A stretch of 64,000 nucleotides of DNA from Octadecabacter ascidiaceicola (GTDB lineage: Bacteria > Pseudomonadota > Alphaproteobacteria > Rhodobacterales > Rhodobacteraceae). The position numbers were made by a program, and so were the translations under genes. Positions 1 through 12,011 of this stretch are shown here, one piece after another. Each line of letters starts with the position of its first letter. The stretch's first letter is position 1. Location: assembly GCF_900185015.1 (NCBI RefSeq), contig NZ_FXYD01000003.1, forward strand, positions 1 through 64,000, read 5' to 3'. Under the pieces are notes generated by a model, which saw only the letters and a program-made list of their open reading frames with translations, was not told the origin of the DNA and ran no database searches.

Positions 1-695
1 TCCAGAACGTCCAAATACTCTTTCACAGCGCGCGGCGCATCGTTTGGATCAATGGCGCTGCGTTCCCAATCTTCCTTTGGCGTGGAGTTTTGTTTGTTCG
101 CATCGGCCTCGATTAAGCTAGCGTCTGGATGCTTACTAAATTCATGCAAACGACGTGCATCAGCGACAAACCATTTAGGGCAGCTTTTCTCAGTGAAGAG
201 GGATATTTGGTTTGCAAATTCCGGCGGTACGAACTGCGCAATATACTTCAGCTTAAGCTCTGTATTTCGCCTTTGAGCGATCGCAAATGGTTTTGTCTCG
301 AGTAAAACCCTGAAACCAGATCGATACTCAATAAGTGCATCCGCCGTATAAGCCACCTCACGACCATCCTCGCATGTGTACGTAACTGAACTGGGCTGAT
401 CCCAGATATGAACAACCTCCGGATCAGCCATGGCGACAAACAAGCCAGCCCCCTCAAGGTGGCTTTCGGTTTTCAGAGTGATGTATTTTTTTAGCTTCTG
501 GCTAAAGAATGGGATCCCGCCCCGGCTGCTTTGTCGAGATCGCTTGCTGAGTTTTCTAGTTCCAGCGCTTTCCAACGGAATCTTAACGACTCCTTGAAAG
601 CAATCAACGTAGGACTGGCGAGCACAAAGCTCAGGTTTCGATGTTCTTGATGGTTGTTCTTTGACCATAAGGTCATCTGTTGGTGACGACATCAT
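1..695 (-). CDS. TnsA-like transposase endonuclease, 3' end outside window
   Basis: The minus-strand frame is open from an ATG at 695 to the left edge (231 codons, no stop), so the C-terminus lies outside. A Shine-Dalgarno (GAGGGAGG) sits just before the start. The first 60 residues are basic and variable. A PD-(D/E)XK-type core follows: Glu in TESHLE (about residue 77), Asp in YTADALIEY (about 119) and ETK in LLETKP (133-135). This order and spacing match TnsA, the restriction-like subunit that cuts the 5' ends of Tn7-like elements together with a DDE transposase (TnsB). Family knowledge predicts tnsB/tnsC-like genes just beyond position 1, which cannot be seen here. Alternatives are a lone TnsA-fold nuclease of a restriction or defence locus. 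The neighbouring genes are all broken, as expected near a mobile element. Confidence 0.72.
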   Translation of the reverse strand, partial: MMSSPTDDLMVKEQPSRTSKPELCARQSYVDCFQGVVKIPLESAGTRKLSKRSRQSSRGGIPFFSQKLKKYITLKTESHLEGAGLFVAMADPEVVHIWDQPSSVTYTCEDGREVAYTADALIEYRSGFRVLLETKPFAIAQRRNTELKLKYIAQFVPPEFANQISLFTEKSCPKWFVADARRLHEFSKHPDASLIEADANKQNSTPKEDWERSAIDPNDAPRAVKEYLDVL

Positions 696-873
696 GCGCC
701 TCCCTCATTTGCGTGAAAACAATAGCTAACGCCGCCGCAAAAAGCGGCGTCGCAGCTTGACTTTTGGCGTATGAGAAGGGAAATTCGTCTGAGGTGGCGT
801 CGAAATCTACCTACAGAGAGCCCTCAATCGTCTATGACGAGCGAGGGTTTTCGCCTTCTCGGAGAATTATTAG

Positions 874-1017
874 CTATCCATCCGAGACCTCCATGTTTTC
901 ATGGGTTGGGCCAAATATCTCATCGACCGGAGTGCCGAGTTGAAGCGCGATGAAATCTTGGACCTTTTTTGAGCGACGACTTCTATGAAGCACTTTGCTG
1001 ACTAAGCTACGAGAGCC
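874..1017 (-). pseudogene. Remnant of an Nlp/Ner-like HTH regulator (C-terminal half)
   Basis: Read on the minus strand from about 1017 to a TAG at 874-876, one frame encodes a 47-residue segment containing SLVSKVL, RRSKKVQDFIALQLGTP and DEIFGP. This pattern (a recognition helix, then a basic RRS stretch, then an IA..LG.P..EIF tail) is typical of Ner/Nlp-like and related Xre-type DNA-binding proteins. There is no start codon, and the N-terminal half is missing. The frame starts exactly where the similarity of the neighbouring KptA fragment ends, so two unrelated genes were joined by a recombination or deletion. It is probably not translated as a functional protein. I recognise the pattern but not a specific gene. 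Confidence 0.5.
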
Positions 1018-1235
1018 GCCCTAATCTTCAATCCGTCTTCGGACAACGTGAAGCGTTTTTTTTCGTTGGCCTCGACGATCTGGACCAATTCCTCGCGGCT
1101 TAGTTTTCGGTTGGCTTTTTTCATTTTTCGCAACAGCTGGTCAACATCAACCCAGCCGTGCTTGTCCACCTGAAGACCTATCTCTTCAGGTTTGTGCCGG
1201 AGTACCAAGCTCAAAAACTTACTCTCTTTGCTCAT
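1002..1235 (-). pseudogene. kptA: Truncated RNA 2'-phosphotransferase KptA/Tpt1 (N-terminal half)
   Basis: The 77-residue product matches the N-terminal winged-helix half of KptA/Tpt1, which removes the 2'-phosphate from RNA using NAD+. The typical start (SKFLSLVLRHKPE), DKHGWVDVDQLL and the RFTLSEDGLKIRA segment are present. In the intact family, about 180 residues long, the protein continues into an ADP-ribosyltransferase-like half with the NAD site. Here the family pattern stops after IRA and the frame ends four codons later. The DNA beyond the break encodes part of a DNA-binding protein in another frame. The catalytic half is absent, so the fragment should be inactive. KptA genes in bacteria are often found in accessory islands. 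Confidence 0.75.
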
Positions 1236-1469
1236 GATTAGACTGCGTTACCATATTGATTGATCCGCAATTATCATGGCACCCGATGGATAGGAACCGT
1301 GGAGATATCCCTTTAAGAGATATGGCTCCGCCAAAAGGCCCTTCTACAGCGTCGTCGACTAAGCCCGGGTGCACGCATTACCGTTTACCTCACCTTTCAA
1401 CGTTTCCCCCAAGAAATCTCTTTCGACCGAGAGGCCAACCACTGCAAAACCCCATTGCTAGACGGCATG

Positions 1470-3292
1470 TTATCGGCATCTCAAAACCGCCTCATAGCAT
1501 TTGGGAAAGTACGACTGATCGTGTTCTGATAGTGCTGCAACGGCACCTCTACTCTTTGCTGAGATTCTTAAGGGAACTTTGACTGACCCAACGCCAGGAA
1601 CCACCACTGCAGCAGTCTTTGTTGCAAACTTTCCATCGTATTCTCCAGATTTGATGTACCTTTGAATTTTGACCAAAATGATTAGGTTGCGCTGCCGTGA
1701 ACTAAGGAAGGATTTGAGTTTGTCGGTGTCGACTGCCAGCCTCTCCCCAACTGTTTCCGTCTCATGTCGGCCTTGTCCTTTCCGCATTCCCCACGCCTCT
1801 GAACGCAGGAACACATTTTGGCTTTCATCCATCCAAAAACGACCAAAATCATCAGTCCGCTTTAGTGATAACGCTGCTATCGTTTTGTCGTTTGGCCTTG
1901 TTCTTCCGGCGACATGCTTGACAGCGTATGGATCAGAAGCATCGATAGATGCAGATCGCCCACGGCATCTCCGATACGTTCGGTCCTGCATGAGGCGACC
2001 AAAAGCAATCCATCGATTGGCTCAATAAGCAAAGCCTCGATGAGCTGTTTCGCAAACGAGTTGGTGTTGGTTGCTGCTGCTCTCAGTCCGGCGTGATCCA
2101 CGGCGTCAAGGAGCAAGACTATCTTCGCGGCACTACTCCGTCTTTGGACAGCAGCAGTTGCCTGCTTTAGGCGCTTAAGGCCCGTTCGCAAAAGTGAAGC
2201 TTCGTCCGCGCCAGGCAGCAAAGGGTCACAAAGTCCTTTCACCGCTATTGAGTTGACCAAGTGGACCAAACTCCGATTTACCAAGTGACGTTCGTCACCC
2301 GGCATTCTCCATCGGCCGCCGCCAAATCCATCGTGAAGTATGCAAAGACAGTTCTCACCAAAACGTTGAGCTAACGCTTGCAGAGTAACTGTTTTACCTG
2401 AACCACCAGCGCCATGTATCAACATAGGGCTTTGGGCATTGAGTAGGTCCGCAACAACGATGTCTAGGAAAGAACGAGCAACTACGTTTTCAACATCTGG
2501 AAACGATTGAGGCACAGGAAATAGGTCGTCCTCATCACTCAACTCAAGAGCTCCAAGAACATCAGTGCGTTTTACAACGTTGTCTTTGTATCCCTCCGTA
2601 CCCGCCTTATCCCTTAAAAGCTGGCAAAGGCTATGGTAGCGAAGTTTAGCGAACACGTCGTTTGCGCCGCCCCAATCCGCCAAAATATTTCTAACGCTTG
2701 CTTTTTCTCCACGAAGTGAGCGACCAGCCCCGACGATATTGAGCGTGGCCAACAGCTCTACCAACTCGACCGAAGCGGTTTCTTCGCCCCCTGTCAGCGT
2801 ACGATATTGTCGTTGTTGCAAACCGTTAAGAGAAGAATAGGGTTTCTCTTCGGAAATTGCCTTGATTGTTGCCCTTAAGTTATCACCGACTTCGCGATTG
2901 GTCGCAAATTCAAATTCCAAAGAGGCTTCGACCCAACTCGCCCCATTCTGCTCAATAAAGTCATGCCTCGTTTCGAGAAATTTAGATATGGTCTTTGAGA
3001 TGTGGCCGGCGGAGAGCGTTGTATCAACTTCCGACGCAACGTATTTAAATTGCGTCACGATTACTTTTTTGGCGTTTTCTGACGGATGGCCTCCAAAATA
3101 CTGGACCATGTCTGCTATATCCATGGTTTCGCTGGAAAGACCTTCAGATTCTTCTTTTGCGAAACCCTCCATGGCGATTGCATGGAGTTCTGAGCCCGGC
3201 AGCAATAGTGCTAATGTAACACGGGAAGCCCAAGCCTCATGATATTCGTGGCCATCTCTTGAGGCAGCTACAGTAATAGGGTCGTTTGACAA
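1470..3292 (-). pseudogene. Broken STAND NTPase with PD-(D/E)XK-like N-terminus, antiphage-like
   Basis: The 5' part (about 3292 to 1880) has a likely TTG start at 3292 behind TTGGAGG. Its first 100 residues carry a nuclease-like pattern: DGHEYHEAW, an acidic MDIADM, then VTQFKY (a QxK motif as in DUF4297/Cap4-type nucleases). A STAND/NACHT NTPase domain follows, with Walker A GAGGSGKT, Walker B LLLDAVDHA and the VASCRTER sensor. The frame stops soon after SMSPEE. A second minus-strand frame (about 1905 to 1470) continues with DDFGRFWMDESQN and GERLAVDTDKLKSFL, which look like the C-terminal end of such proteins. The long sensor region expected between them is missing. I infer an internal deletion with a frameshift. 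Related architectures (Avs-like) sense phage proteins and kill infected cells. This copy should be inactive. Confidence 0.68.
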
Positions 3293-3843
3293 AAAAACCT
3301 CCAACAAACTCAAGCAAATATTACAACTATCGGTATAGTCTGTGCCTTTGGCCAGCGAAATTCTTCATTCGTTTGGTTGAACAACTTCGAATTCATTTTT
3401 TAATAGGTGTTATGCCCTTTTTACACATACCATCAGCAGATAATCACAGTATCTCACTACTAGAGTAGTATTGGTTTTGGCTGTCCGCGCTGCAGATATT
3501 AAGCTAAGGCCAGCACCTAAATTTCGCGCAAGCGACCATGTGCTGAAACAAAGGTGGCCACCGCAGCATAGCAACCTTCTGGTCGACGGCAGACTTAGGC
3601 AGAGGAGCTACGATGTGACCTTATTCTTACCCACAATACTCCATCGATGAATACCAGAAAATGTCGAATGCGCTCCAGACAGACTACCGCGAACGTTTGA
3701 AAACTGCTCCATTGGAACACTCTTGAGAAATTAAATCCAGCCATGCCATTTACGCAAAACTGCAGGTTAGATGTCAAAAACTGGCGGCTCGGCGTCAAAA
3801 AGTTTCACCTTATCTGTCATTCCAGAAAGGAGAACGAACCCAA
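3293..3843. other. Island boundary, mostly non-coding
   Basis: This stretch separates the broken defence genes from the conserved nrdJ gene, and it looks richer in A+T than the core genes. The only protein-like trace is a plus-strand stretch between two stops at 3619-3726 (35 codons, containing SIDEYQKMSNALQTDYRERL). It has no start codon near its beginning and I cannot assign it. I see no tRNA, no integrase gene and no clear direct repeat that would mark an attachment site. Confidence 0.4.
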
Positions 3844-6105
3844 TCAGCCACACTTGGAATAGCCGCAATCCGAGCAGGTCATGCAGCCTTCAACCATACG
3901 AAGCGTATACTGGCCACAGCTGGAACAAGCATTGCCTTTAGGCTTCATGTTCACCACCTCAGCGTGTGGGTCCGTTTTCAAACCCATACCCTCTCCGGCC
4001 AAAAAACCAGTCGAAACCATGTGCTTTTCGATCACCCCACCAATCGCGGCGAGGATAGACGGCACGTATTTGCCGTTCATCCATGCCCCGCCACGCGGAT
4101 CAAACACCGCCTTAAGCTCTTCAACAACGAAGGACACATCGCCACCACGACGGAATACCGCCGAAATCATACGTGTCAATGCAACGGTCCATGCGAAGTG
4201 TTCCATATTTTTGGAGTTGATAAACACTTCAAACGGGCGGTGCTGCCCTTGATGCAAAATGTCGTTTACGGTGATGTAAATCGCATGCTCTGAATCCGGC
4301 CATTTCAGTTTATAGGTCTGACCTGTCAGTTCGCCTGGGCGGTCCAGCGGTTCGGTCATGTAAATGACGTCGCCAGCGTTTTCATCGGCGATGACTTCGG
4401 GCTTTTTGTCTTCGGCAACCGACAATACGGACCCAGTTACATCATTGGGGCGATAGGTCGTGCAGCCCTTACAGCCTGAATCCCACGCCTCCATGTAGAC
4501 CTCTTTGAAATCATCAAACGAGATGTCTTCCGGCACGTTGATTGTCTTGGAGATCGAGCTATCGACCCATTTCTGTGCAGCCGCTTGCATGCGGACATGC
4601 TCAAGCGCGGGCAGCGTTTGGGCGTTGACGAAATAGTCCGGCAATTCAGCGTCACCGTGCAGATCGCGCCACATTTTGACAGCGTAATCGACGACCTCTT
4701 CTTCGGTCCGCGAACCGTCCTTTTGCAGAACTTTGCGATTGTAGGCGTAGGCGAACACTGGCTCGATACCGCTGGACACGTTGCCCGCGTAAAGGCTGAT
4801 GGTGCCTGTTGGGGCAACGGAGGTCAGCAACGCGTTGCGGATGCCATGCTCACGGATCGCGTCACGCACATCATCGTCCATCTGCATCATGTTACCCGAC
4901 GCCAGATACTGATCCGCATCAAACAACGGGAACGCGCCCTTTTCCTTGGCCAAGTCCACCGACGCCAGATACGCGGCGCGGGCGATCGTTTTCATCCAGA
5001 CTTCCGTCTGACGCGCCGCCTCCTCTGAGCCATAGCGCAGGCCCGTCATCAAGAGCGCATCCGCCAACCCTGTAACGCCAAGCCCGATCCGACGCTTTGC
5101 GGCGGCCTCTTTCGCTTGCGCTTCCAATGGGAATTTTGATGCATCCACAACGTTGTCCATCATGCGAACGGACGTCGCGACCAGCTCGGTCAATTCAGCT
5201 TCGTCTACATTCGCTGCTTTCTCGAACGGGAAATGCACCAAACGCGCAAGATTCACAGAGCCGAGCAAACAGGCGCCATAAGGTGGCAAGGGCTGTTCGC
5301 CGCAGGGGTTGGTCGCTGCGATAGTTTCCACGTAGTTCAGGTTGTTCATCTCGTTGATACGGTCGATGAAAATCACACCGGGCTCGGCATGGCTATATGT
5401 GGACTGCATGATGCTGTCCCAGAGTTCGCGGGCTTGAACGGTGCGCACAACAACGCCATCCCAAACAAGATCCCACGCTTTGCCTGCTTTTACCGCTTCC
5501 ATGAACGGGTCTGTGACAAGCACAGACATATTAAACATCCGCAAACGGGCGGCATCGGATTTCGCGGTAATGAAGTCTTCAACGTCAGGGTGATCACACC
5601 GCATCGTCGCCATCATCGCACCACGGCGGGACCCCGCAGACATAATCGTGCGGCACATCGCGTCCCAGACATCCATAAACGACAGCGGGCCTGACGCATC
5701 CGCCGCAACACCGTGCACAGTTGCCCCCTTGGGTCGAATGGTTGAAAAGTCGTAACCGATCCCCCCACCCTGCTGCATCGTCAGCGCAGCCTCACGTAGG
5801 TTGTCAAAAATGCCAGACATCGTGTCTGGGATTGTGCCCATCACAAAGCAGTTGAACAGCGTGACAGACCGATCCGTCCCTGCGCCTGCGGTAATGCGGC
5901 CCGCTGGCAAATATCTGAAATCTTCCAATGCCTTATAAAACTTAGGCTCCCACTCAGCAGGCTTCTTTTCCACGGACGCCAGTGATTTCGCGACGCGCGA
6001 CCATGTTTCTTCTACCGTTGCATCAATCGGCGTGCCATCCGCCTCTTTCAGGCGGTACTTCATGTCCCAAATTTGTTCGGCAATAGGGGCGGCAAAGCGG
6101 GTCAT
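3844..6105 (-). CDS. nrdJ: Adenosylcobalamin-dependent ribonucleoside-diphosphate reductase (class II)
   Basis: Converts ribonucleotides to deoxyribonucleotides using a radical generated from adenosylcobalamin. The 753-residue product has the N-terminal MTRFAAPIAEQIW start typical of the alphaproteobacterial form, the NCFVMG cysteine, the glycine-rich QQGGGIGYDFS segment and the active-site NPCGEQPLPPYGACLLGSVN. It ends with a zinc-ribbon-like tail (CSSCG, then CMTCSDCGYSKCG) that carries the exchangeable redox cysteines. I chose the start at 6105 because AAGGA lies just before it. A start 14 codons further upstream is possible but fits the family less well. No cobalamin riboswitch is visible in the short upstream region, which is shared with the divergent gene at 6208. 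Single gene, no NrdI/NrdR nearby. Confidence 0.97.
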   Translation of the reverse strand: MTRFAAPIAEQIWDMKYRLKEADGTPIDATVEETWSRVAKSLASVEKKPAEWEPKFYKALEDFRYLPAGRITAGAGTDRSVTLFNCFVMGTIPDTMSGIFDNLREAALTMQQGGGIGYDFSTIRPKGATVHGVAADASGPLSFMDVWDAMCRTIMSAGSRRGAMMATMRCDHPDVEDFITAKSDAARLRMFNMSVLVTDPFMEAVKAGKAWDLVWDGVVVRTVQARELWDSIMQSTYSHAEPGVIFIDRINEMNNLNYVETIAATNPCGEQPLPPYGACLLGSVNLARLVHFPFEKAANVDEAELTELVATSVRMMDNVVDASKFPLEAQAKEAAAKRRIGLGVTGLADALLMTGLRYGSEEAARQTEVWMKTIARAAYLASVDLAKEKGAFPLFDADQYLASGNMMQMDDDVRDAIREHGIRNALLTSVAPTGTISLYAGNVSSGIEPVFAYAYNRKVLQKDGSRTEEEVVDYAVKMWRDLHGDAELPDYFVNAQTLPALEHVRMQAAAQKWVDSSISKTINVPEDISFDDFKEVYMEAWDSGCKGCTTYRPNDVTGSVLSVAEDKKPEVIADENAGDVIYMTEPLDRPGELTGQTYKLKWPDSEHAIYITVNDILHQGQHRPFEVFINSKNMEHFAWTVALTRMISAVFRRGGDVSFVVEELKAVFDPRGGAWMNGKYVPSILAAIGGVIEKHMVSTGFLAGEGMGLKTDPHAEVVNMKPKGNACSSCGQYTLRMVEGCMTCSDCGYSKCG

Positions 6106-6207
6106 GTGACATCCTTTTGATTGGCTGGCAGAATCGAGAGCAGACATCTACCCTACCGAACACGGAACGAAATTGGAACATTCTTTAACTATTTGAGGCG
6201 AAAATCT

Positions 6208-6639
6208 GTGACCCCAAAACTGCACCTACAAAAGCTCAGCGTGGGTACAGAAAGTGTCGCAGGTTTGGCTGAATGGCACGCTTTAACGCGCACTCAAACC
6301 CCTGACGGGCTGCCACGCCACATCACGCGCATGTGGCCTAAGCGAGAGGCAGAGTTACTCGAAGGTGGGTCGATATTCTGGGTGATTAAGGGCGAATTGG
6401 CCTGTCGCCAGCGCATTATGCGTTTTGACGAAGTGATCGGCAGTGACGGCATCCGCCGCTGCGCTTTCGTTCTAGACCCCGAACTTATTCGCGTCGTTCC
6501 GACGTTAAAACGTCCTTTTCAGGGATGGCGGTATTTGAAGCCAGAAGACGCACCGATGGATCTGCCGAAGGGACGGGAGGCGGAAGAAGCGCTACCTGCT
6601 TCGCTATCTGCTGCCTTGGCAGAGATCGGGATTCTTTAG
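6208..6639 (+). CDS. DUF1489 family protein
   Basis: A 143-residue protein of the conserved alphaproteobacterial DUF1489 family, whose function is unknown. Family-typical segments are KLSVGTESVAGL near the N-terminus, TPDGLPRHITRMWPKR, GGSIFWVIKG in the middle, and RRPF-like FQGWRYL near the C-terminus. I chose the GTG at 6208, preceded by GAGG, because family similarity begins there. The frame stays open further upstream to an ATG at 6121, but those residues look non-coding. It diverges from nrdJ with about 100 bases between the starts. Confidence 0.85.
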   Translation: MTPKLHLQKLSVGTESVAGLAEWHALTRTQTPDGLPRHITRMWPKREAELLEGGSIFWVIKGELACRQRIMRFDEVIGSDGIRRCAFVLDPELIRVVPTLKRPFQGWRYLKPEDAPMDLPKGREAEEALPASLSAALAEIGIL

Positions 6640-6823
6640 AATGAAACCACCCGAAGGCGTCAGTGCTGTGGCCGCAGCATCTGGTGCATTCAGCGCGGCA
6701 AAACGCCTGGCCCCAACGTCCGCTAACACTTTATCAACCATTATTTTTGTGTTGCTGGCGTGTTTCTTGCCAGCAAGAACAAGTCCCTATTTTTTAACGA
6801 CTGATATTTTTAGAAGAACTACG

Positions 6824-7354
6824 ATGAAAACCCTATTTATAAGTACAGCCATCGCTGTCAGGGCTGTCACCGGAGCCGCGGCGCAGGAACTTAGCTACGG
6901 TCAACTTTTTGCCAACTACGGTATGTGGTCTACGCCAGGTGGCGATGCAGACGTACCGATCCTCGGCGCAGAAGCTGGTGTGCGTTCAAGACTTTGATTT
7001 CTGGATAGACGGTGCGCAGGTAACAATATCGCCTGATGGCGCCCCAGTGAACCTGACGGGTGACGTATTCACAATTGGTGCAGGTTACACATTCGCTGAC
7101 ACTTACCGTGTAGACGTGTCGTCTTCTAACCTAAGTGTTGGATTTTGCGGACCTGATCCGCATTCGTGGCACGTACAACGTACCCGACACATACACATTG
7201 TATGCTGGCCTTTCGCGCTGACCTTGGCGGCACTGAATTGGACGGCTTTAACTTCGGCATGTCCATGAACTTTGGCGACAAGCCTGCCTCATACGAAACA
7301 ACTGCAGATCGTCTGTTTAGTGTCGTTGAGACAGCAGCTGCGTTCGACTACTAA
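6824..7354 (+). pseudogene. Decayed outer-membrane/secreted protein gene
   Basis: The start at 6824 encodes a signal peptide (MKTLFISTAIAV...GAAAQ) followed by ELSYGQLFANYGMW. The frame then breaks near 6995. A second frame (about 6990-7150) continues with DFDFWIDGAQVTISPDGAP and GAGYTFADTYRVDVSSSNL. A third supplies RIRGTYNVPDTYTLYAGL, then RADLGGTELDGFNFGMSMNF to a stop at 7354. Joined together these make one plausible beta-rich protein, with the alternating aromatic and polar strands of small outer-membrane barrels. At least two frameshifts are needed, so the gene is broken. I do not recognise the family with certainty; a porin-like or autotransporter-like barrel is likely. It lies downstream of the DUF1489 gene in the same direction. 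Confidence 0.65.
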
Positions 7355-7379
7355 GTTTTTTCTTAAGTTTGCATTGGAG

Positions 7380-7407
7380 TAGGGCATCCTTTGGGTGTCC
7401 TATTTCG
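7380..7407 (+). terminator. Hairpin terminator between convergent genes
   Basis: TAGGGCATCC and GGGTGTCCTA pair over ten positions (two G-U pairs) around a TTT loop, and a short T-rich stretch follows. It lies downstream of the broken membrane-protein gene and facing the end of hisG, so it may serve both directions. Confidence 0.6.
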
Positions 7408-7456
7408 CGTTTAAGATCAGTGAATTGACAGCATAACCACCACCATCAATCCCAAT

Positions 7457-8149
7457 CTATCGGGCTAGTTTCGCGTCAAGCGTCTTTAGGATTTCGCGTT
7501 GCTCTTTGGACCAATTGCTGCGGCGGCCGCGGAAAAGCGTGGCTTGGCTGGCATGGATTAGCCCATCACCCAATATTTTCAGCCCGTTAGCGCGCAGGGT
7601 CTCGCCCGTTGACGTGATGTCAGCAACCGCTTCAGCGGTTTCGTTGCGGATTGTGCCTTCTGTCGCGCCTTGGCTGTCGACCAACTGGTAATCTGCGACG
7701 CCATTCTCGCGCAGGAAGTCCCGCACAAGGCGGTGGTATTTTGTGGCGATCCGCAAACGGAAGCCGTGGTTGGCACGGAAAGCAGCGGCAACGGCATCGA
7801 GGTCGTCCAAATTGTCGACGTCAATCCATGCTTGCGGCACGGCGATGATTAGGTCCGCCCCCCCGAAGCCCATCTTGGCGACTTCGACAACCCGTTGATC
7901 CCAAGAGCTGAGCTTTTCACGCACGAGGTCAGAACCCGTCACGCCAAGGTGGATGCGCCCAGCATCCAACTCACGCGGGACTTCTCCGGCGGACAAAAGC
8001 ACCAATTCGATGCCGTCAATTCCGTCCACAGCGCCCGCGTATTCGCGGTCGGACCCGGATTTGCGCAGCGTCACACCGCGTGCAGCGAACCAATCAAACG
8101 TCTTTTCCATCAACCGCCCCTTGGACGGCACACCGAGCTTGAGGGTCAT
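7457..8149 (-). CDS. hisG: ATP phosphoribosyltransferase, short form
   Basis: Catalyses the first step of histidine biosynthesis, joining ATP and PRPP. At 230 residues this is the short form, which lacks the C-terminal regulatory domain and works only in a complex with HisZ. The N-terminal LKLGVPSKGRLMEKT and the PRPP-binding segment ADITSTGETLRANGL (about residues 175-190) are clear. Its start overlaps the stop of hisZ by four bases, so the two subunits are probably translated in a coupled way. The order hisS-hisZ-hisG is seen in other Rhodobacteraceae. Confidence 0.97.
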   Translation of the reverse strand: MTLKLGVPSKGRLMEKTFDWFAARGVTLRKSGSDREYAGAVDGIDGIELVLLSAGEVPRELDAGRIHLGVTGSDLVREKLSSWDQRVVEVAKMGFGGADLIIAVPQAWIDVDNLDDLDAVAAAFRANHGFRLRIATKYHRLVRDFLRENGVADYQLVDSQGATEGTIRNETAEAVADITSTGETLRANGLKILGDGLIHASQATLFRGRRSNWSKEQREILKTLDAKLAR

Positions 8150-9228
8150 TGTGCAGCCTCCGCGATTGCAACAAGATCTGGGCGGATCACGCCACCAACG
8201 GCGGGAACGCCTTTGCCAGCGCCCAAAACCGTTGTCAGCGCGTCATAGCGCCCACCTGTCGCCACAGGTGGAATGTTCAGGTCTGCAGCGGCCGAAAAGC
8301 CGAACACGAAACCGTCGTAATACTCCATTGAGGTCCGCCCATAAGCGGCCTCAAACGGAAGCGTCTCGACGTCGATTCCACGTGCAGACAGTGCGTCGAG
8401 CCGTGCGGACATGCCGTCGACCGCAGTAGAAATTGACGGCAAATCAACCGCAATATCGCCAAGGAGCGTCATCGCATTGGGTGCGGTTTCACGAACGCTT
8501 AGCAACGCGTCCAACAGGTCGCGCTCCATGTTCGAAATGGGGTCAGCGGCGGCATCGTCGCGTAGCGCTTCGATCCGCAATGCAATCTCAGATTCAGACC
8601 GCAAACCCAACACCGAAGGTAAGTTCGCCATCGGGTCAGCCTCGGCCAGCAACGCGGCGCGGGCTGCGGGAACCGGTGTGATACCACCAAACCTGTCCAG
8701 CAACGCCTTAAAGCGGCGCGGACGCCAAAGGTGGCGCATAAGGGCCGCGCGACGGCGTTCCGTAGTTTTAAGCCCCATCACGGCGGCACGAAGTATACCG
8801 ATGTCTCCTGTAACAGGCGTAACAGGCACATCCGCGAGAATTTCAGCAAAGGTCGCGAAGACCTCGGCGTCTGCGGCTGCGACATCACTGCCGTCAAACA
8901 CCTCAAACCCTACTTGAACAAACTCGGACGGACGGGCCTCGTCAATTTCCTGCTTCCGGAACACTTTGCCAAAATAGGTGTAGCGCGCAGGTTCCGCGCC
9001 AAAGGCCATGTGTTGCTGTACGATTGGCACCGTGAAATCGGGGCGCAACATCTGCTCACCGCGCAGTGGGTCTTGAGTTGTGAACGCACGGGCGCGGATG
9101 TCTTCGCCGTAAAGATCCAAAAGCGTTTCAGCAGGTTGTAGGTAATCCGCATCCGTTATCACGGCGCCGCGTTCGGCAATAGCTGCTTGATAGCTCCGCG
9201 CGCGGTCCCAATTGGATTGTCCGGTCAT
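8146..9228 (-). CDS. hisZ: ATP phosphoribosyltransferase regulatory subunit
   Basis: HisZ is a catalytically inactive paralogue of histidyl-tRNA synthetase that binds short HisG and provides histidine feedback control. The 360-residue product keeps the class II synthetase fold: a motif-2-like stretch (YFGKVFRKQE), SEFVQVGFEVFD and a C-terminal TGGRYDAL segment. It lacks the C-terminal anticodon-binding domain of a real HisRS. I chose the ATG at 9228, two bases after the hisS stop codon, rather than a longer frame that reaches into hisS. It is co-transcribed with hisS upstream and hisG downstream. Confidence 0.95.
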   Translation of the reverse strand: MTGQSNWDRARSYQAAIAERGAVITDADYLQPAETLLDLYGEDIRARAFTTQDPLRGEQMLRPDFTVPIVQQHMAFGAEPARYTYFGKVFRKQEIDEARPSEFVQVGFEVFDGSDVAAADAEVFATFAEILADVPVTPVTGDIGILRAAVMGLKTTERRRAALMRHLWRPRRFKALLDRFGGITPVPAARAALLAEADPMANLPSVLGLRSESEIALRIEALRDDAAADPISNMERDLLDALLSVRETAPNAMTLLGDIAVDLPSISTAVDGMSARLDALSARGIDVETLPFEAAYGRTSMEYYDGFVFGFSAAADLNIPPVATGGRYDALTTVLGAGKGVPAVGGVIRPDLVAIAEAAQ

Positions 9229-9230
9229 TG

Positions 9231-10718
9231 TCACTGGTTTTGCTCGTCCAATAAGGCTTTGATCCGGCTGACCAGATCGGCACGTGGAATTTCGAACTGT
9301 TGTGGGCGTTCGCTCCATTCTTCCTGCGATGCAGTCTCGGCAATCTTCGCGCCAAGGATCAGGTCTTTGACTTGCAGCGTTCCCGCCGCCAACTCGTCTC
9401 CGCCTTGGATGATTGCAATTGGGGAATTGCGCTGATCCGCATACTTCAACTGGTTGCCAAAGCTTTTGGGGTTACCAAGGTAGACTTCGGCGCGAATGCC
9501 CGCATTGCGAAGCTCGGACACAATCGCCTGATAGTCCGCCATGCGGTCACGATCCATAACGGTAACCACGACGGGGCCCGTTGTGTCCATGTTCAGACGG
9601 CCCTTCATGTGCAGGGCTGCAAGCAGGCGATCAACGCCGATAGACACACCCGTCGCCGGAACTTCTTGGCCGGTGAAGCGTTTCACGAGGTCGTCGTAGC
9701 GACCACCACCAGCAACAGAACCGAAGGAACGCGGACGGCCCTTTTCGTCTTTGATCTCGAACGTCAGTTCGGCCTCAAACACGGGGCCAGTGTAATATCC
9801 AAGACCACGCACAACCGACGGGTCAATGACGATACGGTCAGGACCATAACCGCCAGCCGCCAAAAGGTCTGCCATTGTTTGCAATTCATCCACGCCCTTT
9901 GCGCCAACTTCGCTGTCACCGATAGCGGCCCGCAGGTTCGCCAATGTGCCCTCAGTTGTGTCAGACTTGGATGTCAGAAATGCGACAACAGGCTCGGCCT
10001 GAGCATCGGACAGGCCCACGCCGTCGATATAGGCACCAGAGGCATCCAAGCGTCCCTTGCCCAGCAATTCACGCACGCCGCTTTCGCCAACTTTGTCGAA
10101 CTTGTCGATGGTACGCAGGACGTTGGCGCGTTGGTCGTCATCAAACAGGCCCATAACCTCAAGCACACCGTTCAAAACCTTGCGGTTGTTGATGCGCACG
10201 ACGTAGTCGCCACGATCAATTCCAACGGCTTCCAGCGTATCCGCCAGCATCGCGCAGATTTCGGCGTCTGCGGCGACATTACCAGACCCAACAGTATCCG
10301 CATCACATTGATAGAACTGACGGAACCGTCCCGGACCCGGCTTTTCATTGCGCCACACAGGACCCATCGCAAAACGACGGTAGGGCGTCGGCAAATCGTT
10401 GCGGTGCTGGGCGAAGACGCGGGCCAAAGGTGCGGTCAGATCATAGCGTAGGGCCAGCCAGTCACCGTTGTCGTTTTCATCTTCTTCCTGCCACGCAAAG
10501 ACGCCCTCGTTCGGGCGATCCACGTCGGGGAGGAACTTGCCGAGAGCCTCAACGGTTTCAACAGCCGCTGATTCAAGCGCTTCGAACCCGTAGCGATGAT
10601 AAACCCCAGCAATCGTGCGCAACATGTCTGTGCGCTGCGCGACTTCTGCACCGAAATAGTCGCGAAACCCTTTTGGGGTCTGCGCCTTGGGTCGTTGGGG
10701 TTTTTTCTGCTTGGCCAT
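9231..10718 (-). CDS. hisS: Histidyl-tRNA synthetase
   Basis: Charges tRNA-His with histidine. The 495-residue protein has a lysine-rich start, then PKGFRDYFG, the [13 protein letters not shown] segment, motif 2 ([20 protein letters not shown]), the histidine-binding [24 protein letters not shown], motif 3 ([13 protein letters not shown]) and a C-terminal anticodon-binding domain. It is first in the hisS-hisZ-hisG unit, so translation capacity and histidine synthesis are likely expressed together. The promoter should lie in the 100 bases shared with the divergent slyX gene. Confidence 0.98.
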
Positions 10719-10821
10719 TGGTTTGGCTCCCGCTCAGGACATTGAATACCCGCGCTTTACCGCGCCCACACGCGCCACGCAACAGCAGGGGCTAGCAAAG
10801 CGTCGCCCAGCGCCTTAATGG

Positions 10822-11031
10822 ATGTGTATGAGTGATCAAACAAACCTAGAAGAACAGCTCGCGCACCTTAGCCGCACGGTGGATGATTTGTCCGATATCG
10901 TCGCCCGCCAAGAAGGTGAGATCAGCAAGCTGACGTACCGCGTGCAGATGTTGATGGAACGCGAGGCGAGCCGTGAGATGGACACGGGTAGCAGCGTGCC
11001 CTTGGCAGACCAACGCCCGCCGCACTACTAG
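10822..11031 (+). CDS. slyX: SlyX family protein
   Basis: A 69-residue, highly charged, predicted coiled-coil protein (LEEQLAHLSRTVDDLSDIVARQ, then EISKLTYRV) with the conserved C-terminal tail DQRPPHY. SlyX homologues are widespread, and their function is not established. Translation may start at the first ATG (10822) or at the ATG two codons later (10828). No strong ribosome binding site decides between them. It diverges from hisS, and its end lies four bases from the end of the convergent lipoprotein gene. Confidence 0.85.
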   Translation: MCMSDQTNLEEQLAHLSRTVDDLSDIVARQEGEISKLTYRVQMLMEREASREMDTGSSVPLADQRPPHY

Positions 11032-11034
11032 GTG

Positions 11035-11907
11035 TTAGCCGTCCTTTAGGGACATCGCCAAAACTTCGCCGTCATGGACAAGGATTTGCGCCCACTGCGT
11101 TGGCACAGAACTGAACGTTCCGCCAAAGAAGTTGTAGACGGTTATGAAGTGCGTATCGCGGTTCAACCGCTCTGTGCGTTCACCGCAGGGCTGACCACGA
11201 CCCACGCGACATTCGCTTGCCTTTAACGCCTCATAGGCGTTGTCGGTTGTTGTGTAGTCGATGCGTTCGTTGCTGCTTTGGTAGCGGACGAATTCATGGG
11301 TTTCGATGTCGCCTGTTACGACCACAGCACCCGTAAATGTGCGCGCGCAGTTGTCGTCAAACCCAGTGATGTAAAAGGGTCGAAGGGACGTCGTGTGGGG
11401 GATTGTGTCGTAGATTTTGAAGCCTCCACCGCCATCAATTTGCGTGCCAAGCTGGTTTGAGCGTAAACCACACACACGGGCGATTTCACCGAAGGGCATT
11501 ACGGTTCCGGCATCGACGTCCGTTGCATCAGGGCCTGTGCGCGGGCGATCAGCGCGGCCATTACCGCTAAACAAACCACGCAAGCCACGGCGCGGCGCCT
11601 CCGCTTGCGCAGGTTCTTGCGGAGTAACAGCGGCGGAAACTTCGACCGGTTCATCTGTGTCAGAGACTGCCGTATCAGCCAAAGCCGCTTCCACAGCGGC
11701 ATTTGTCGGATCGTCAGGTTGGCGATTTAGCATCCGGCGAAATAAGCCACCGCCGCCAGCGTTATTGCGTGCCTCGGCCGGAGTTTCGGCGACGTTTGCT
11801 GCGCCATCCGCAACGGCCACATCACCCAAACGCGCCACATCGCGCAACGGATCTCCACATGCGGAAAGCCCTGTAGCTACTACCAATCCCAACAAAATAT
11901 GGCGCAT
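11035..11907 (-). CDS. Lipoprotein of unknown function
   Basis: The 290-residue protein starts with a lipoprotein signal (LLGLVVATGLSAC, cysteine at about residue 17), so it should be anchored in a membrane. A low-complexity, Ala/Pro/acid-rich linker follows (about 20-125). The C-terminal domain (about 130-290) has paired cysteines (ARVCGL, DDNCAR, ASECRVGRGQPC) that may form disulfides in the periplasm. I do not recognise the domain. It lies downstream of dnaE on the same strand with a 100-base gap, so it may be a separate unit. Confidence 0.75.
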   Translation of the reverse strand: MRHILLGLVVATGLSACGDPLRDVARLGDVAVADGAANVAETPAEARNNAGGGGLFRRMLNRQPDDPTNAAVEAALADTAVSDTDEPVEVSAAVTPQEPAQAEAPRRGLRGLFSGNGRADRPRTGPDATDVDAGTVMPFGEIARVCGLRSNQLGTQIDGGGGFKIYDTIPHTTSLRPFYITGFDDNCARTFTGAVVVTGDIETHEFVRYQSSNERIDYTTTDNAYEALKASECRVGRGQPCGERTERLNRDTHFITVYNFFGGTFSSVPTQWAQILVHDGEVLAMSLKDG

Positions 11908-12011
11908 TAAGCGTCCTTCACCTTACCGTTTCGAATGTCTTAACGGATGGGCTGGCGTGCGTCCACCGGCCCCTTTGGACAGGCGAGGTTTTGCCGCATC
12001 TGTTGGCGGCA

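Follow-up and report, generated by a model that had tools for sequence, protein, structure and literature searches.

The tnsA remnant and the contig edge

The window, the whole stretch of 64,000 nucleotides analysed here, derives from Octadecabacter ascidiaceicola (GCF_900185015.1, NZ_FXYD01000003.1, positions 1–64,000 of the forward strand) and represents bases 1–64000 of contig C5 in an assembly of 3.23 Mb and 11 contigs that is rated 99.99% complete. Its left edge carries an open reading frame of 231 codons on the minus strand (3–695), which is real and composite. The first 190 codons (126–695, minus strand) are the 5′ part of a tnsA gene, as indicated by profile PF08722 and by an alignment of 12 homologues. 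Codons 191–231 encode 41 residues of an IS1182-family transposase, not of TnsA, and tnsA is therefore truncated at its 3′ end; the C-terminal part of TnsA, present in the homologues, is lost from the window copy. The match to PF08722 (Tn7_TnsA-like_N) scores 26.7 bits, just above the cut-off of 26.5, and a good Shine–Dalgarno sequence, GAGGGAGG, precedes the ATG. Invariant columns of the alignment include S78, E81, D119 and K135, and E133 is likewise present in the window copy. A profile search of the PDB gave E. coli TnsA (1f1z) as the top match, which is weak (E 0.034). An AlphaFold model of the 190-residue piece, computed from the single sequence, was uninformative (mean pLDDT 39), and a phage search with the frame returned no match.

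These results revise the first-pass annotation in part. It had read the frame as TnsA-like, which holds for the PF08722 match in the 231-codon frame and fails for the last 41 codons. It had also proposed the catalytic set Glu77, Asp119, Glu133 and Lys135, of which the last three stand, whereas the first acidic residue is Glu81 and not Glu77, because the Glu81 column is invariant in the 12 homologues. The good ribosome binding site that it noted is confirmed. Its proposal of an element extending leftward, if with an intact gene set, is not supported, as tnsA is cut by the IS1182 fragment, the contig stops and no tnsB was found in the genome.

The IS1182-family fragment occupies window bases 1–127 (minus strand) and was recognized by blastn, by tblastn and by its position within an annotated IS1182 transposase. 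The best blastn matches cover exactly 127 bp of IS1182-family transposases at identities of up to 89%. With such an insertion sequence the window thus shares 127 bp of transposase, fused in frame to tnsA, but it holds an internal piece only, equivalent to about codons 146–186 of a 462-codon transposase of which the first ~145 codons are missing. Several contig ends of the same assembly have exactly 127 bases in common, and IS1182 pieces sit at several of the ends. We infer that this exact sharing reflects an assembler run with k=127 that halted in a repeat, in which case window bases 1–127 would double as the k=127 terminus of C5. The junction itself could instead be an assembly error at the repeat, and the true tnsA would run on intact past the point where the contig stops; in favour of this, the foreign part has exactly the length of the overlap at other contig ends, and IS1182 pieces lie at several ends. 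Contigs from a de Bruijn graph, by contrast, normally terminate at a real branch, and no tnsB turned up elsewhere in an assembly of 99.99% rated completeness, so we regard such an error as quite improbable.

Because window base 1 is the terminus of C5, the sequence to its left cannot be read, and the continuation beyond C5 is ambiguous since IS1182 pieces occur at several contig ends. TnsA, TnsB and TnsC profiles run against 12 contig pieces of the assembly in search of the neighbour of C5 gave no match. Neither PF09299 nor a nine-row TnsB alignment detected tnsB in the genome, in searches that had no positive control and for a locus within which the contig ends. The only TniQ match is a truncated stub of 177 codons on contig C3 (28081–28458). 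It was rejected as part of the tnsA locus, as it lies 28 kb inside C3 and shows no linkage; standing alone, it may be a vestige of some other element since lost. A similarity between the start of C3 and cargo of a congeneric element (G004) proved to be merely that of two amidohydrolase-like paralogues, so named from sequence. The glutamine synthetase gene beside nrdJ in genome G002 was discarded as a marker for the far side of the locus, as only distant paralogues (29–32%) occur in the present genome. Three further contigs (C4, C6 and C11) have identical first and last 127 bases and hence look circular. The 5,513 bases of C6 equal 5,386 + 127, a size that matches the phiX174 sequencing control, and we take this contig to be a likely contaminant.

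Broken genes between tnsA and nrdJ

The region to the right of tnsA contains remnants of three further genes, all on the minus strand. The first is a small Ner-like regulator of the HTH_35 type (889–1029), identified by its translation and by tblastx against loci upstream of tnsA. A Ner-like HTH_35 gene precedes tnsA in several related elements; the pre-tnsA genes of two relatives match HTH_35, one above the cut-off and one slightly below. The second is the N-terminal half of kptA (1002–1235), which encodes an RNA 2′-phosphotransferase and matches positions 6–78 of 177 in PF01885 (E 5e-21). The kptA remnant ends where the HTH remnant starts, and one relative (G210) has a full-length kptA frame immediately before tnsA. 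The third is avs3a (AVAST type 3), represented by a C-terminal fragment (1470–1991; profile positions 1948–2057 of 2083; NF041816, E 4.5e-12; PDLC02167, E 1.3e-14) and an N-terminal part (1877–3313; positions 1–424 of 2083; NF041816, E 1.2e-75; PDLC02167, E 1e-69). The likeness to Avs3a is confined to 424 profile positions at the N terminus and 110 towards the C terminus, whereas about 1500 central codons are gone and the two pieces lie in different frames, so that the gene falls short of a full-length Avs3a.

Decay over the 2.6 kb to the right of tnsA, as described in the first-pass annotation, is thereby confirmed and resolved into broken HTH, kptA and avs3a genes (695–3313). DNA without a counterpart in relatives continues past these genes (3314–3831), and homology to the nrdJ regions of nine relatives starts only at 3832–3851. 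Next to it lies nrdJ (3844–6147, minus strand), an intact frame for an adenosylcobalamin-dependent (B12) ribonucleotide reductase that is conserved in relatives and scores 591.7 bits against TIGR02504 (cut-off 399.95). No tRNA genes were found in window 1–12000, and neither Rfam families nor tandem repeats in window 1–6200. At nrdJ in most relatives, cargo sits between nrdJ and tnsA, for which reason the broken genes are more likely to be the element's own cargo than DNA outside it.

The proximity of Avs3a and KptA remnants, and the failure to find tnsB in the genome, could also be taken to mean that the frame encodes an independent TnsA-like nuclease within a defence locus rather than part of a transposon. 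We consider this very improbable, since homologues of the frame head tnsA-tnsB-tnsC-tniQ operons, which upholds the original assignment to a Tn7-like element; moreover, the gene is truncated, and a PADLOC scan yielded no match for it.

Tn7-like elements downstream of nrdJ in related genomes

TnsA homologues are present in 33 of 394 genomes of the family, including the present one, with 37 copies in 32 of the 393 other genomes. The set searched for nrdJ comprised 40 genomes (the present one, seven picked by hand and the 32 in which TnsA had been matched), and nrdJ was found in 37, the exceptions being G020, G161 and G281. Ten of the 37 TnsA copies, in nine genomes, are located no more than 45 kb downstream of nrdJ, and the same distance upstream contains none; nine of the ten are on the nrdJ strand, as in the window. 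The chance expectation for 4-Mb genomes is about 0.42 copies, a value that must be read in the light of a 45-kb limit picked after seeing the data and of copies that are not independent. In joined stretches, operons of tnsA-tnsB-tnsC-tniQ follow nrdJ in six genomes (G255, G265, G349, G264, G105 and G004), and partial sets in others.

We further used the TniQ of G105 as a query, which revealed relatives in 46 of the 394 genomes. Among 21 new TniQs with upstream DNA, five lie downstream of an nrdJ that shares their strand (G043, G386, G382, G341 and G157), four show no nrdJ in the ~20–40 kb upstream (G058, G296, G122 and G128), and for twelve the upstream stretch reaches a contig end. The 21 were taken near the top of the list, leaving out a copy close to the start of contig C26 in G024 and lower-scoring rows, and the position of nrdJ in G341 was known beforehand; the check is partly prospective. 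The TniQ survey supports the link to nrdJ, though not as an exclusive one.

Four elements display both ends together with a 5-bp target duplication, and their nrdJ-side ends lie 14–26 bp past the nrdJ stop codon. The element of G105 spans 31.1 kb, with its end 14 bp past the stop and the duplication TCAGA. Two others are from the window's genus: that of G004 measures 29.0 kb (end 23 bp past the stop, duplication TTGAA) and that of G005 9.2 kb (19 bp, CTATG). The inverted ends of all three, taken with their identical 5-bp duplications, beat 200 of 200 shuffles; for G005 the tested stretch was centred on the end found in an earlier search. The fourth element, in G360, is split over two contigs: its nrdJ-side end lies 26 bp past the stop on C26, and the opposite end is on C31, roughly 10 kb past tniQ. 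Its ends agree in 26 of 28 bases, the next-best place reaching 19 of 28, and GAAAT lies outside both; these values were read from the scan and carry no shuffle test.

A first end search over 13 loci, including the window, recovered G105 and G005 only, and a second over seven of these recovered G105, G004 and G005; four further loci and G157 gave no pair of terminal inverted repeats with a duplication. Such pairs were thus obtained at 4 of the 19 nrdJ loci examined, where a contig end cuts off the sequence of at least four, namely G081, G210, G216 and the window. Within the window's genus, 4 of 10 nrdJ flanks match a proven nrdJ-element end at 0 of 300 shuffles, three of them (G003, G011 and G012) the end of G004 and one (G015) that of G005.

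The arrangement of these loci varies. In G005 (L113), the ends of the 9.2-kb element agree in 23 of 24 bases and only a tniQ fragment was detected, so that the element is perhaps non-autonomous. In G105 (L178, L164 and L177), two tns sets follow nrdJ in tandem, the second tnsA lying 44 kb from nrdJ, and by eye a stretch resembling the end of G081 starts directly after the right end and target duplication of the first element. Elements appear to stack at nrdJ, given this adjoining end and the distant second tnsA. A split layout is found in G382 (L236, L235 and L252–L254), where the minus-strand pair tnsB-tnsA lies close to nrdJ and the plus-strand pair tnsC-tniQ follows some 17 kb on, and it occurs there twice in succession over ~67 kb; G216 (L167) likewise has tnsB-tnsA on the minus and tniQ on the plus strand. 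Opposite-strand TniQ genes without other tns genes as neighbours stand directly after nrdJ in G002 (L106:2638-3849) and G349 (joined locus, 830-2677). The nrdJ-side end in G341 and G157 has a conserved AAA ATPase gene as its neighbour (L239:989-2080 and L241:2381-3472), and a similar AAA ATPase N-terminal part seems, by reading, to be fused to an amidohydrolase-like part in G004 (start of L179:966-2633). In G043 (L225 and L226), the nrdJ beside the element is found in overlapping pieces in different frames, perhaps as the result of a frameshift.

The cargo at these sites includes defence genes. Of 10 long frames picked by hand from the nrdJ-side regions of six genomes, eight match PADLOC models, which include type I restriction genes, Ppl, SIR2 and LmuB. 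The cargo of G004 looks metabolic by reading, not defensive, and counts against the pattern. The wreck of avs3a in the window fits this defence-cargo pattern.

TnsA lineages and a proposed nrdJ attachment site

The window copy keeps tnsA only, and its relation to the nrdJ elements was approached through gene trees. The first trees combined 20 of the family and plasmid loci with the nrdJ-linked ones, using TniQs longer than 250 and TnsAs longer than 150 residues. Ten of 12 nrdJ-linked TnsAs form one clade (support 99/98), the exceptions being the window and G407, and nine nrdJ-linked TniQs fall into two clades, of seven (98/96) and two (100/100). In a tree of 46 TnsA rows, from which G020, G290 and the first G264 copy were excluded, a branch with support 100/99 parts 26 rows, containing 15 of 16 nrdJ-labelled copies, from 20 rows. 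The latter half comprises tRNA-linked copies (eight rows), G360, G407, the window and other copies. The window TnsA hence lies outside the half that holds most nrdJ-linked copies. It forms a long branch of uncertain placement, and in an AU test on a 33-row tree its inclusion in the nrdJ clade was not rejected (p 0.31).

The sequences closest to the window TnsA belong to tRNA-linked Tn7-like elements of the family: G016 (35%), G057 and G161, and the element of Phaeobacter inhibens plasmid NZ_CP081213.1 is of the same type. A tRNA-Arg (ACG) gene lies upstream of tnsA in G016, G261, G161, G290, G341, the first G264 copy, Phaeobacter and Tritonibacter; it is tRNA-Pro in G057 and tRNA-Ala in G359. 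The G016 element is complete: its ends agree in 27 of 33 bases, and CCTGC flanks it on either side (read from the scan). The Phaeobacter element resembles the window in having an HTH_35 gene before tnsA and defence cargo, whereas it, like G016, sits after tRNA-Arg (ACG) and the window copy after nrdJ. This kinship raises the alternative that the tnsA piece stems from a tRNA-targeting element and came to lie near nrdJ by coincidence, through nesting in another island or a rearrangement such as one mediated by IS1182. The nearest TnsAs, from elements after tRNA-Arg or tRNA-Pro, the position in the tRNA-linked half of the tree (100/99) and the resemblance of the HTH remnant to that of tRNA-linked elements all favour it. 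Window 1–12000, on the other hand, holds no tRNA, and the same half of the tree contains both G360, whose two ends are at nrdJ, and G407, with a tnsA remnant that follows nrdJ at a distance of 6 kb and shares its orientation. We judge the coincidental adjacency unlikely.

The locus probably represents the decayed remains of a Tn7-like transposon with defence cargo whose insertion point lay immediately downstream of nrdJ. A recurrent insertion site at the 3′ end of nrdJ is well supported in the relatives by sequence comparison, and its use by the window's own element would follow by analogy with them. Points against insertion at nrdJ are that the window's end has not been found, that its TnsA lies outside the nrdJ half and nearest to tRNA-linked copies, that only 4 of 19 loci yielded ends, and that 4 of the 21 TniQs related to that of G105 show no nrdJ upstream in ~20–40 kb. 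A comparison of the window's nrdJ flank with 12 element ends reached 6 of 500 shuffles at best, which over 12 comparisons is not convincing, and another with five ends gave no match. No terminal repeat was established for the element in several end comparisons, its far end lying outside the contig. To judge from the alignments, the nrdJ-side end should fall within 3314–3831, with a candidate at ~3819 on the minus strand.

The elements of the relatives share with Tn7 (TnsABC+D, attTn7) the order tnsA-B-C-tniQ/tnsD, a 5-bp duplication, TGT...ACA ends and an insertion point immediately behind a conserved gene's stop codon. They differ in the site, which is downstream of glmS for Tn7 and at the 3′ end of nrdJ for these elements. 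TnsD serves as the selector of Tn7: it binds the end of glmS, and the element inserts just downstream (PMC2918618). By analogy, a TnsD-like TniQ bound to the conserved nrdJ 3′ end would recruit TnsC, and cutting and joining by TnsA and TnsB just past the gene would leave nrdJ intact. Of nine TniQ frames at nrdJ, seven have 531–642 residues and two are shorter (269 and 404). In Faure et al. 2023 (PMC10293859), long C-terminal TniQ/TnsD extensions are linked to direct site recognition, and the length of the seven longer nrdJ-site TniQs is consistent with such a role. Avs3a, and possibly KptA, would have been cargo of the element, placed between tnsA and the end that faces nrdJ. Its decay may have involved an internal deletion that took most of avs3a and a second deletion that fused kptA to the HTH gene before tnsA, with an IS1182 fragment now standing in for the tnsA 3′ end.

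The first-pass suggestion of an uncharacterised Tn7-like element finds partial backing in the elements of the relatives at nrdJ, whereas the window copy itself has no intact set. Among the papers listed from the open PMC library, no title or abstract opening describes this site, although supplementary tables and subscription papers might list the site; the main texts of PMC10293859 and PMC8649781 contain neither 'ribonucleotide' nor 'ribonucleoside'. On balance, we lean towards the view that the nrdJ 3′ end is an unreported Tn7-type attachment site in this family, used by at least two TnsA lineages, at which elements stack in tandem and defence genes gather. The lineage of the window would then have switched target while keeping its transposase, given that the TnsA of that lineage is known elsewhere in tRNA-linked elements.

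Taken alone, the window is an ordinary wreck, and its value is that of a pointer to the nrdJ site. Where defence islands accumulate, and which genes could be harmless integration sites, depends on the safe landing sites of Tn7-like elements. If the proposal is true, more than one transposase lineage would share a new site at a core metabolic gene, a case that would reveal how target selection moves between lineages, and nrdJ would offer a defined spot for seeking defence systems in these bacteria.
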